From assembly GCF_029784135.1 (NCBI RefSeq), contig NC_073746.1, positions 179,243,788 to 179,307,787 on the forward strand: a DNA stretch of 64,000 bases. The letters run 5' to 3'. Numbering within the stretch: position 1 is the stretch's first letter; every line of letters starts with the position of its first letter. Position numbers and translations under genes: made by a program. This document shows positions 40,137 through 44,394 of the stretch, piece by piece. Under the pieces are notes generated by a model that worked only from the letters and a program-made list of their open reading frames with translations, did not search any database and was not told where the DNA came from. The stretch is from Toxorhynchites rutilus septentrionalis. Lineage: Eukaryota; Arthropoda; Insecta; Diptera; Culicidae.

Positions 40137-40961
40137 CAGCAGAACCAACGCGGACTCGATTGTATACAGTTTCTGATTTCTTTTCACTGTATATAATCAA
40201 ATCCTGTATATAAACGAGTCAAAAAATATTTTTTTGACGTAGGACTACGTCTAACCGGAAGATATAGGGTGTGAAATGAAAATCTAGGCACTGAACAAGT
40301 AGGAAAAAATGCAAGATTTGGAACACTTATAACTCGAGCATTTCTCAATAGATCGCAAAGGTTTTTGCATCAATTGATAGGAAATATATCTACGCATCTA
40401 TCATAATGAATAACATTTCGTTTTTCTTGAGATAAATAATTGAATAATTGTGAAATAGCAAGCATTGTCCAAATGCACTATGTGCCCATTTTTGATTGGT
40501 CCATTTTGTGCTCCTCAAATCGTACCGACCAAAACGGGCAACCAGAGCAGCAGCGAAATAGAACGAAGCGCGATTGGAAAGGAAAAAGAAAAAAAATGAA
40601 CGAAACATTGGTCGCAGTCTCACACATGCGTAATTCTCGAGCCAGCCAGTCAGCTTAAAAATCCCCGCTCCGTTGCCGTAACGATCATTCTTTGTGTGGA
40701 AACCGACTGGACAACATCGTTGCTGGACGAGCTGGACGGCGAGGGATCGAGTGCCTTTTTCAAGGCAAGAGGGTGGAGGTGGTAGCGCTGGAGTAGAGTA
40801 GAGTAGAGTTTTCAAAGGGCCTTTCTCAAGGCTAGAGACGAATGAACTGAAAACGTTTAAAGTCTCTATAATACAATACCTTCCTACCTTCCGTAACGAT
40901 CATTCTCATCCAAATCGTACACCACATCGTTTCGCATCACATCACATCAACAAACCAACAC

Positions 40962-41215
40962 AAAGGAGGAAAAGTGAAGGGAAAGGCAAAATCCCGCTCG
41001 AACAGTGTTGGTCTCCAGTTTCCCGTATGTGTATCCGCCAATTGCTCCGCAAGGGTAGCTAGGCCGAGCGCGTTAGTACCAGTGCACCAGTCCACCTAGC
41101 CGGTGTTATATAGTTTCGGCCGCCGAAGTGATCGAGTTGGCTGGCAAAGCTGCTCGCGACGATAAGAAAACCCGCATTAGGAACAGACCACATTCGGTTC
41201 GGTGGACATCAAGAA
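40962..41215 (+). pseudogene. Histone H2A pseudogene (G5, module 1)
   Basis: It starts inside the H2A N-terminal tail (KGGKVKGKAKSRSN) because a deletion removed the ATG and first codons. It continues VGLQFPV, then frame-shifted LLRKG, AERVSTSAPVHLAGV, VIELAGKAARDDKKTRIRNR. It is closest to the G4 copy. Stops and shifts make it non-coding. Confidence 0.87.
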
Positions 41216-41418
41216 AACAACAGGCAGTTGCAGCGAGTGGCGAGTGGCAAACGCAATCGCATAACGACAGCAGGTAGCGGAAGAAAAAAGTTTGTTCTTT
41301 ATGCAAAGTACTCTGGTGGCAAATCCAGAACAAGGCGGCATCGAGGGCGTTCGAAATGGTTTTTTATTCAAAACCACGAGTACTAAGTTTTCTAAATTGG
41401 AACCATTCCATAAAACAC

Positions 41419-41434
41419 GGTGCTTATCAGGGCC
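41419..41434 (+). terminator. Histone-type stem-loop after H2A module 1 (G5)
   Basis: GGTGCTTATCAGGGCC can pair with a G-T wobble and one mismatch. It is followed by 'cctttcaaaaaagag', as in G4. Confidence 0.6.
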
Positions 41435-42082
41435 ATTAAACCTTTCAAAAAAGAGTTTACGAAATACAGTTCAATGCATTCTAAAATATTATCCTAAATA
41501 ATAATTAGACACAAATTGATTTTTTCATAATTTGTCTGCCAGAAAATGATGAGTTTGAGAATTTGGCAGTTGTGCTGAGCTTATTGATGGTTGGAGACTT
41601 TCTCGATTATTCAATTTTCACCAATTCTTAAATTGCTTCTAGATTGAAACTACATTAATTTACATTTAGTTCGACATTTAGCTAATTGGACGGACCTGTA
41701 ATGCGACATATTTAGTTGGACATTTTTGTAAACATGGAGTTCGGGGTCCAAGTTATGACCCAACATGTCCCAAGCTGGAAGGGAAGAAATTTTCCAACTG
41801 TGAAAGCTGTACCACTGTCATCGCAAATGTTCAGTTACAGGTTGAAATCGCATCCAATGCGATACTGAGTGGTGCTTCGGCATATCGCATTAAATGTAAT
41901 TTACAGTACAACATGTCCCAAGCTGGATGGGAAGAAATTTTCCAACTGTGAATCCTGTGGCGAGTGACAAACGCAATCGCTAAACAGGAAGGTTTAGCCG
42001 AACAAGATGGGTATATCGAGTGATAACAAAACAATAAACTCTTTATATTAAAGATGATTTTGTGGTCCTGAAAAGCTGGTAT

Positions 42083-42425
42083 ACTTCTTCACCGCTTTGG
42101 TACCTTCGGAAACCGCATGCAAGTTCACCGGGCAGCAACAGACTGATTGTGATCTGAATTTCCCACGCCGTAATGGTTGACCGCTTATTGTAGTGGGTCA
42201 GACCCGGGGCTTCCGCTACGATACGCTCAAAGATGCATTGACGAAGCTCAAGACGCTCATCGCCTTCGATGAGAAACCGGTGTCGGAATGATCCTGATTC
42301 AGCACCTTATAATGTAGATAGCATATGATTCATTCTCCTCCCTATTGTCGGTTTCCGAGATATTCTTCTGCGCCGTGCCGAACTTTTTGGCGGCTTTTCC
42401 ATTATTCCACTAGTCTTCGGTACAT
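42083..42425 (-). pseudogene. Histone H2B pseudogene, almost full length (G5)
   Basis: On the minus strand, from the ATG at 42425-42423, the frames together show PKTSG, KAAKKFGTAQKNIS, ESYAIY, KVLNQDHSDTGFSSKAMSV, SFVN, HYNKRSTITAWEIQ, LLLPGEL, a shifted HAVSEGTKAV and KKYTS. This is the H2B order over about 115 of ~124 codons. A 1-base loss after ATG, several small indels and a TAG destroy the frame. The end lies next to a partial stem-loop and 'ataaagagttta'. It faces away from the H2A fragment that starts about 80 bp to its right. Confidence 0.9.
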
Positions 42426-42499
42426 TCGTGTTTGTTAGAAACAACTGCATGTGAATCCAACGAGCGAACAAATCGTAATGAATGTATTTTTTGCCATCG

Positions 42500-42715
42500 C
42501 TGCCTTTTAACGCACATCACATCGCATCAACGGATTGGTGCCGGAGCACAAGTATACCTAATAGCGGTTATAGAATTTCGGCCGCCGGAGTGCTCGAGTT
42601 GGCTTGCAAAGCTGCTCACGACAATAAGAAAACCCGCCTACAGAACAGAGCACATTCGGTTCGGTGGCAACAACTAGTCTCAGCGAGTGGCAAACGCAAT
42701 CGCAGCAGGTAGAAG
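42500..42715 (+). pseudogene. Histone H2A pseudogene (G5, module 2)
   Basis: The plus strand shows RIGAGAQVYLIAVIEF then, after a shift, AAGVLELACKAAHDNKKTR, the central H2A fold and its DNKKTR motif. The N-terminal tail is deleted. It is divergent from the H2B at 42083-42425 as in animal histone gene clusters. A degenerate tail 'LVSASGKRNRSR' replaces the normal C terminus. Confidence 0.87.
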
Positions 42716-42775
42716 AAGGAAAAAGTTTGTTTATACAGACTGCTTTGGTGGCAAAACCAGCCACCGTAAAACACG

Positions 42776-42791
42776 GCGCTTTTCAGGGCCA
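42776..42791 (+). terminator. Histone 3' stem-loop after H2A module 2 (G5)
   Basis: GGCGCTTTTCAGGGCC with one mismatched pair is preceded by aaaaca and followed after 8 bp by 'tttcaaagaagagtt', a purine-rich histone downstream element-like stretch. Confidence 0.72.
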
Positions 42792-43568
42792 TTAAACCTT
42801 TCAAAGAAGAGTTATTAAAAGTTTTTCACAATACATTTCACAATGCATTCTAAAGTGACATAATATGACATATAATATAAACCGATTTATTTTGTTTATG
42901 CTTGTTCTTGAGCTTATTGGTGGCTGAGGTCTTTTAAATTGATCATTCAGTTTTCACAAACCCATAAATGGTTTCCGAATTAAAAGTGGCTTCAAATTAC
43001 AACATATTGTATGCAGGATGGCATTAACGAAATTTCTGGGTAGCAAGAACTGCTTTCTTTGGTTGATAACTGATGTTGAAAATTGACGGACGTTACATCT
43101 GCATTGTATAGAAAAATAACTAAGGAGCAACATGATGAGCTATGTATTTCCTGCTGCTCTGTTCTTATTTTAAAGGACTTTAATCCGAAGGTCATCCGTC
43201 CCTGTATTTACTGTTGGTTTTTCAGAACGCTTATAGCTCGTTTATTTCTCGACAGATCGTAGAGTTCGTCTCCAAAACCTCAGTTCTGTTTCATTTTTAT
43301 TTATTTTGTTTGCGGAGACTACAAATCTTACAATTCATTCGTCTCCGAAACCACAGTTTAAGGTACGATAATATGCTCAATAGTGAAATATATGATAGTG
43401 AATGAGCTGATGACCACCAATGTATTCTCTATCACAGCCATCATTTTGATTGTACGATATGTGCATACGCCGAAAGATGGCCGGCGTTGAACATTTAATA
43501 AGTACAAAGCCTTCAGAAAAAAATCAAGAATCAATTTTGTAAAAAAAACGCAAAAACACAACACTAAA

Positions 43569-43584
43569 GGTTCTTTTCAGAACC
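43569..43584 (+). terminator. Canonical histone 3' stem-loop near the G5 end
   Basis: GGTTCTTTTCAGAACC preceded by acactaaa is identical to the stem-loops of G3 and G4, followed by 'ataaagagtaaa'. Confidence 0.82.
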
Positions 43585-44394
43585 CCCAACATGTTCATAA
43601 AGAGTAAACAGTAAACTAATCCATTTTTCAGGTAGATAGGTAGGTATTCACGAAGGAGAAGAAAATAAAACAATATATTTGAAATATATATTTAGCAAAA
43701 GCTGTCCCCTTTGTATAGTCCTACGTCATCCCGGTTATGTCCCCGACTTTACCCACCCGTCTTTTTTTCTTCCTTTTTTTTGCATGTATTTTTCGTTTTT
43801 TGAATATAAAAGAGGAATTTGATTTTTGATTTATCCCCTTTCCCAACCCCATGTCAAGAAACACCTTTCTCACTTGAGAAAAATAAATTTATCCAGAGAT
43901 GTGTTCGAATTTCAACAATGACAGAGTTATAGAACTCTGCATTAAAAAGTACGCTACGGAAGACGATTCTGTTGTTTTCATTTGAAAGATAAGAAAATTT
44001 AGTACAGGTATAGTAGCGAAACATTTTAAATTAGTGGATTTTCATAACATTTTGGAAGTAAAAAACTTCAAAGTTAATAAAAATCAATTATGTGTTATTA
44101 TTATGTTCATCCTAAAAATTTATATGAAACTAGATTGGTTCTATCAATTAAATTGAAGCCCTCTAATCGCACTACAATTTATGCTTTGACACCCAACTTC
44201 TATCTTTCTTAATTTGGCTGCAATATTGATATAAACAATTCCTGGTGAAAATTCAAGCAAAATTTTCAAAAATCGCGATTTTCCCCCTACTGCACATGAA
44301 ATAGTCACTTAAATTTCACCTCAACGTTGAAAGGTTACATTTCTTCTTGAAATAAGTCATATTCGAAATTTAAAAAAAAAAGTTCAAAATTGTA

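Follow-up and report, generated by a model that had tools for sequence, protein, structure and literature searches.

Helentrons of the mosquito Toxorhynchites rutilus septentrionalis carry captured histone DNA and a predicted histone-type 3' stem-loop downstream of the Rep gene

Why should a transposon carry core histone genes, and do these sequences have any role in the biology of the element itself? This question is raised by a 64,000-nucleotide (nt) stretch of the genome of the mosquito Toxorhynchites rutilus septentrionalis (the window; G000:C3:179243788-179307787 in an assembly of 902.6 Mb), in which an earlier note, made from the sequence alone, had placed a pseudogene of H2B and a fragment of H2A inside a mobile element termed G5. 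We find that G5 is a HINE, i.e., a non-autonomous Helentron, that presumably moves by rolling-circle transposition, as judged from its family membership. The element type, its origin by internal deletion, and its content of captured host histone DNA, as described below, can be stated with high confidence. More tentatively, a predicted histone 3' stem-loop in the right end of these elements suggests that the mRNA of their transposase, Rep, might be ended in the manner of a histone mRNA.

The histone genes of G5 are recognizable, albeit decayed (Table 1). When the histones of this species were used as queries, tblastn recovered the H2B on the minus strand in pieces within 42075-42406, in a broken frame (best E 5e-16), with residues 68-106 matching at 72% and residues 5-37 at 52%. 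The pseudogene described earlier is thus borne out, although frameshifted, as is the H2A fragment on the plus strand, and the native clusters show the same divergent order, with H2B on the minus and H2A on the plus strand, as had been proposed. The list in the earlier note lacked a second, larger H2A piece that is also present in G5. Three histone stem-loops or their remnants, at 41419, 42775, and 43569, accompany these genes. When a 711-bp H2B-H2A segment of G5 was used as a query, it was split into two spaced-apart matches in many of the 40 places scored, reflecting the loss of intergenic sequence in G5. The captured genes are broken, and the production of histones from them is not expected.

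The ends of G5 identify the type of element. T-runs border it on either side, and it shares with two sister copies in the window, A and B (88.6% and 93.8% identical to G5 over the aligned columns, respectively), a common start, GACGTAGGACTACGTCTAACCGG immediately after TTTT, and a common finish, CACCCGTC immediately before TTTT. When 13 sources were scanned for the exact end motifs, at least four T residues were seen outside all 11 left ends and all 15 right ends, and the palindrome GACGTAGGACTACGTC directly followed the T-run in each of the 11 left ends. This palindrome, part of the original description of the ends, is real: its 13-base part has 14 matches in the window at up to two mismatches, against 0.55 expected from shuffles, and in G5 it folds as a DNA hairpin at -4.4 kcal/mol (z -1.65). 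The terminal hairpin described along with it fares differently, being mutated in G5 (-1.1 kcal/mol) but folding in copy B (-4.0 kcal/mol, z -1.99). The inverted subterminal inverted repeat (subTIR) of the right end, GTCCTACGTC, lies 44 nt from the end of the element as counted from its first base and 34 nt as counted from its last. These elements agree with what is typical of Helentrons and HINEs, namely a palindromic subTIR lying 2-4 nt inside the 5' end, an inverted subTIR ~38-60 bp from the 3' end, a 3'-end hairpin (here in copy B), insertion in T-rich sequence, and a same-ended autonomous partner with a Rep, a PIF1-type helicase, and a C-terminal endonuclease. Inverted repeats at both extreme ends with a target-site duplication, as in Pack-TIR elements or miniature inverted-repeat transposable elements (MITEs), are not what we find, as the ends are asymmetric.

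The autonomous partner lies on C2 (Table 1). Its left end at C2:6592962 (locus L067) is 94.5% identical to G5 over positions 1-456 of the latter, and its Rep frame (C2:6602185-6607170) is open, encoding 1661 aa with the Helitron_like_N, PIF1, and Exo_endo_phos domains (PF14214, PF05970, PF03372) in a single frame. Such a union of Rep, helicase, and endonuclease domains is given as the mark of Helentrons in the main text of PMC4067079. The right end of the family follows ~450 bp past the Rep stop, finishing at C2:6607835, whereas the left end lies ~9 kb before the Rep frame because at least four H2A modules, ~1.3 kb apart, are found between them (L067:889, L064:214, L064:1535, and L058:464). 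At C2:26.08 Mb lies a second autonomous copy, in which the 652 aa that were searched show no difference and the right end occupies the expected position. G5 matches the autonomous copy on either side of the Rep region and therefore reads as an internal-deletion derivative; most likely, it arose by internal deletion of an autonomous Helentron with the same ends. Since most of the H2B is missing from the copy at C2:6592962-6607835, the direct source of G5 would have been a related autonomous copy. Such deletion derivatives would then be mobilized by Rep from the few copies whose frames are open. Proteins related to this Rep are present in Aedes albopictus, Topomyia, Sabethes, Armigeres, Malaya, and Culex. 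A scan for Rep relatives in viral contigs confirmed none.

The captured block itself records how it was acquired. In four other copies (L052-L054 and L056), it forms a single alignment to the native sequence that starts in the H2B 3' flank and covers H2B and the greater part of the intergenic region (774 native bases at 80%), followed by H2A to about codon 77. It extends ~55 bp past the H2B AAAGAG element (to L051:3834; 91% in G5 and 87% in copy A). Mature histone mRNAs terminate just downstream of the stem-loop. The block, which comprises the promoter region, a coding part, and sequence past the 3' processing site, thus includes sequence absent from the mature histone mRNA and must have been captured as DNA. 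The closest parental cluster type found lies at C3:233.5 Mb and C126 (L041 and L051; 80% for H2B and 84% for H2A), with the C2 cluster type being further off (67% for H2B and 71-73% for H2A). That Helentrons insert in the C3-type histone cluster is indicated by a related left end (78%) inside one such native cluster, at L051:4555. From such an insertion, errant rolling-circle copying may have taken up the adjoining H2B-H2A unit. The original proposal that a non-autonomous element picked up and amplified the histone genes stands as regards capture and amplification; however, because H2A is also present in an autonomous Helentron, the H2A capture was probably made in the autonomous lineage. As a separate observation, H2B and H2A of the native cluster at C3:233.5 Mb are separated by open frames of 477 and 1182 aa (L041 1016-7741), by eye a non-long-terminal-repeat retrotransposon.

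These elements have been greatly amplified. The window holds just two further members of the family, A and B, rather than the five other copies claimed earlier: of the other palindromes, three (near 1630, 16115, and 61576) mark the left ends of related families and two (near 7539 and 14169) the right ends of a related family. Neither A nor B yielded any H2B by tblastn with the species' own histones. Genome-wide, the exact left-end 36-mer occurs 6,569 times (3,269 + 3,300) and the exact right-end 29-mer 6,219 times (3,041 + 3,178), with no occurrence of either reversed-pattern control. Along the first 20.2 Mb of C1 there are 99 left ends, and 72 of them have a same-strand right end within 9 kb, giving lengths of 1.2-8.0 kb (median 2,461 bp). 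Alignment to the native cluster, as proposed in the earlier note, gave ~80% identity. For the captured H2B, a 30-base marker that has at least 7 differences from its closest match in five native loci was counted 306 times when up to three mismatches were allowed. A 27-base marker of the captured H2A, differing at 2 or more bases from the same five loci, is found in 5,214 places at up to one mismatch, a figure that counts places and not elements, some of which have several. When the genome was searched with the 711-bp H2B-H2A segment, the best 40 of 2,561 first-look candidates were scored, and all matched at 91% or more, on C1, C2, and C3. Six of these 40, on C2 and C3, were fetched, and every one has both ends, 3.3-3.6 kb apart, so that the histone pieces and the ends do co-occur elsewhere, as the original proposal demanded. 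Within one subfamily, four copies share 99.2-99.9% identity, which points to recent amplification.

Could the histone sequences have come to lie here in some other way? The native H2B-H2A order would be explained by a degraded histone cluster of the host with mobile elements only at its flanks. Yet the same block lies between the same ends at all six fetched places, and nine element copies are 87.6-99.9% identical to one another but only ~80% to the native cluster. As the clusters lie elsewhere and the element copies end at a T-run on both sides, we rejected this explanation, which the earlier note had named as one that would undo its proposal, and regard it as extremely improbable. Only slightly less remote is a cut-and-paste element of the MITE or Pack-TIR type with captured genes. 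The palindromic, inverted-looking end motifs and the many short copies would agree with it; however, the ends are asymmetric, with 34 nt including a hairpin beyond the right motif and T-runs at both ends, and an autonomous copy with the same ends encodes the Rep, PIF1 helicase, and endonuclease. Reverse-transcribed histone mRNAs that landed in a transposon are not distinguished by missing introns, as the histone genes here are intronless, but the intergenic promoter region and the ~55 bp past the H2B AAAGAG element are included in the block, making retrocopies a scarcely credible source. All this favors DNA-level capture by a Helentron. Two observations count against that account as set out above: ~22 nt of the left flank of G5 do not align to the one paralogous empty site, and in the searched parts of the autonomous copy (L064 and L058) tblastn found no H2B, with just short H2B-end pieces (corresponding to G5 2210-2282) being present.

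Histone capture is not confined to a single family. A second family, with a Rep 66.9% identical to that of family 1 over 1,549 columns, includes HINE copies with H3 between the ends (L043 and L046), and in its autonomous copy, at C2:320.57 Mb, copies of H3 lie upstream of Rep in a sequence read to the right end, though not as far as the left end. A third family has a Rep 60-71% identical to that of family 1, depending on the aligned piece. Eight dispersed H3 copies (L043-L050), several with stops, were considered as copies of the G5 family and rejected, as they share second-family segments and have another left end. A lone H3 without stops is seen at C3:278459948 (L003), with an old family-1-like left end ~1.3 kb off. 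In the window, a left end like that of the H3-carrying family is present at 61353-61599 on the minus strand (77% over 260 columns). Ends of the third Helentron family are also seen there, the left ones at 1630 (plus) and 16130 (minus) and the right ones at 7546 (plus) and 14174 (minus), with TTTCATTAAGG after the palindrome and a GGTCG...ACACAACC hairpin at the right end.

An unexpected feature of these elements is the stem-loop just inside the right end. Scored with the histone stem-loop model RF00032 (gathering score 34), it reaches 41.0 bits in copy A and 40.5 bits in copy B and in both autonomous family-1 copies; overall, scores above gathering were obtained in A, B, L059 (two), L066, L072, and four of the six fetched HINEs (35.0). 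For comparison, the four native stem-loops that pass gathering (L039 twice, L040, and L042) score 35.7-40.8 bits. In the autonomous copies, it stands 3' of Rep, on the same strand and ahead of the right end. The right ends of families 1 and 3 display the full arrangement of a 6-bp stem, a 4-nt loop, flanks, and a downstream AAAGAG. A 41-mer of the family-1 stem-loop occurs 4,998 times in the genome at up to two mismatches. In family 2, a stem-loop and AAAGAG likewise precede the right end, with six of six pairs in L061 and L070 and five of six in L071, and its 41-mer occurs 60 times at up to three mismatches. In the third family, a 601-base stretch chosen by its offset from the first two families, before being read, contained a stem-loop scoring 38.1 bits ~80 bp before the right subTIR, the 39-mer of which occurs 1,498 times at up to three mismatches. 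The control for each of these three counts was 0. When pieces no more than 10 kb apart are grouped, the genome has 19 Rep-like loci, and at least 10 of them have a stem-loop of their own family downstream of Rep on the same strand: 6.60, 26.08, 320.57, 95.63, 154.81, and 90.35 Mb on C2; C3:178.04, C3:224.86, and C3:105.14 Mb; and C1:98.28 Mb, with one broken pair. Stem pairs 3 and 4 vary by family (T-A/T-A, T-A/T-G, and C-G/T-A) yet still pair.

These observations raise the possibility that the Rep mRNA is ended like a replication-dependent histone mRNA, at the predicted stem-loop inside the right end, a proposal we advance with reserve. Histone-type 3' processing depends on the stem-loop-binding protein SLBP and the U7 small nuclear ribonucleoprotein. 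Were these factors to process the Rep mRNA at the stem-loop, its presence could be restricted to S phase, and, in what is the least sure step, Rep would be made while DNA is being copied. Rolling-circle copying could then use the host replication machinery. A still more speculative extension is that the mosquito Helentron Rep behaves as a histone-like, replication-dependent gene, with a stem-loop and U7-type element at its end, captured histone promoters upstream, and expression locked to S phase, such that repeated histone capture would be part of the lifestyle of the element rather than an accident. Captured histones are seen in separate families, with H2A/H2B in one, H3 in another, and two histone fragments in Culex. 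If the stem-loop works in this way, the elements would confine their own transposase to S phase via borrowed signals, offering a direct answer to the timing of Helentron copying.

We nevertheless judge it slightly more probable than not that the histone sequences, including the terminal stem-loop, are mere passengers from Helentron-occupied clusters, with no role in expression. The captured coding parts carry frameshifts, 306 occurrences of the H2B marker stand against 6,569 left ends, and the related left end in the native cluster shows that there was opportunity for capture. Moreover, the captured H2A stem-loops of G5 retain five of six pairs without evident use; thus, persistence alone is no proof of selection. 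What passengers would not readily explain is that three families whose Reps are roughly 60-71% identical by piece have the stem-loop and AAAGAG in a shared location between Rep and the right subTIR, that pairing persists while the stem differs between families, and that the signal was found in a third-family stretch picked by offset before it was read. By comparison, of six captured H2A stem-loops found in G5, B, L052, and L055, five have a G-G mismatch. Several further points weigh against histone-like ending of the Rep mRNA. G5 itself (33.6 bits), L047 (32.7 bits), L055, and L057 fall below the gathering score, as do the family-2 stem-loops of L061 and L070 (22.9 bits), and L071, with its broken pair, gives no RF00032 match at E of 1 or less; of the C3-type native stem-loops (L041 and L051), none reaches gathering either. 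The complete list of 60 family-2 stem-loops includes none at the family-2 Rep locus C1:102476175 and none at the eight remaining Rep loci, which were checked for family 2 alone. Finally, an AATAAA ~80 bp past the stem-loop in the right end could serve instead. In the window, no histone stem-loop was found near the third-family right ends at 7546 and 14174.

Table 1. Positions of G5, its parts, and related copies (window coordinates unless a contig is named; L numbers denote loci taken from the assembly)
Feature	Position	Strand	Evidence or remark
HINE G5, whole non-autonomous Helentron	40236..43761	+	Ends common to copies A, B, and six fetched copies; paralogous empty site
Left-end palindrome (subTIR) GACGTAGGACTACGTC	40236..40251	+	36-mer containing it counted genome-wide
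Captured H2A piece 1, frameshifted, to ~codon 78	40961..41177	+	83.6% to native L051/L041; tblastn (40980-41178) E 1.5e-11
Decayed histone stem-loop of H2A piece 1	41419..41434	+	5/6 standard pairs
Captured H2B 3' flank, extending past processing site	41983..42075	-	91.4% to native L051:3742-3834
Captured H2B, frameshifted	42074..42483	-	80% to native L051 over 433 columns
Remnant of divergent H2B/H2A intergenic region	42484..42530		~156 bp lost relative to many other copies
Captured H2A piece 2	42531..42637	+	81.5% to native; tblastn extent 42453-42649
Histone stem-loop and downstream element of H2A piece 2	42770..42815	+	RF00032 25.0 bits (below gathering, 34); 5/6 pairs
Sequence matching upstream of Rep frame	43408..43523	+	86% to L058:1679-1786
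Internal-deletion junction, Rep region missing	43523..43543		G5 to its position 3288 matches L058; from 3308 matches L059:2318-2536, after Rep stop
Terminal histone 3' stem-loop and AAAGAG element	43564..43608 (stem-loop 43569-43584)	+	6/6 pairs; RF00032 33.6 bits
Right-end subTIR GTCCTACGTC	43718..43727	+	Inverted relative to left end; from sequence
Terminal hairpin GGTTATGTC/GACNTTACC	43733..43753	+	Mutated in G5
Paralogous empty site of G5 insertion	50299..50496	+	T-rich
Sister copy A	21363..23837	-	Two H2A pieces, promoter, H2B deleted
Sister copy B	26651..28629	+	One H2A piece (piece 1, from ATG 27400), no H2B
Autonomous family-1 copy	C2:6592962-6607835		Same ends as G5; Rep frame and H2A modules

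A few side observations were made along the way. Two Rep-bearing copies, one of family 1 and one of family 2, terminate next to the H2A stem-loop portion of a different family-1 element (L066 1-170 at C2:26.0752 Mb and L070 300-651 at C3:224.8667 Mb, respectively), probably as nested insertions. At C2:95.6327 Mb (L072 349-440), a third-family right end is followed within ~12 bases by what by eye resembles a third-family left end, a possible head-to-tail junction such as rolling-circle copying could leave. Elsewhere in the window, 36457-36530 on the minus strand matches the U4 spliceosomal RNA at 66.7 bits (gathering score 46), covering the whole model in only 74 bases.

The capture of histone sequences by a mosquito Helentron is already in print, contrary to the initial impression that no such element had been described: the main text of PMC4067079 reports Helentron-Cq-32A of Culex quinquefasciatus, with fragments labeled 'H4 superfamily' (smart00428) and H15, in eight copies. 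Like the elements described here, this is an amplified mosquito Helentron with replication-dependent histone fragments bearing stops, frameshifts, and indels (PMC4067079). Compared by description, the Toxorhynchites elements differ in having H2A and H2B with their divergent promoter region, the 3' signals, and the terminal stem-loop, and in their hundreds of H2B markers, thousands of H2A-marker places, and a second family with H3. The main text of that paper does not use the words untranslated, polyadenylation, poly A, or mRNA. In one open-licence library, judged by title and the start of the abstract, we found no report of a terminal histone stem-loop in a Helentron, nor of an H2A-H2B unit complete with its promoter and 3' signals, the spread of this unit, or an H3-carrying second family. 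The present elements join rolling-circle transposons to the 3' ends of replication-dependent histone mRNAs, a link that we did not find in that library, and show a core-histone gene pair that was captured as DNA and multiplied to hundreds of places. Moreover, as the likely parental cluster type, the autonomous element, and the deletion derivatives are present in one assembly, the steps of the capture can be read in order.

More generally, G5 shares with the HINE/DINE-1 elements the palindromic subTIRs near both ends, the 3' hairpin, T-rich insertion, and derivation from Helentrons by deletion, as set out in the main text of PMC4067079, but its family differs from them in carrying histone genes. 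The gene-capturing Helitrons of maize and bats named in the same source similarly took up and amplified pieces of host genes; however, they have the ends of another superfamily, whereas the genes captured here are core histones with their processing signals. Finally, the predicted terminal signal resembles that of the replication-dependent histone genes, with a stem-loop and an AAAGAG-like downstream element as in the host clusters, but here it follows a transposase gene rather than a histone gene.

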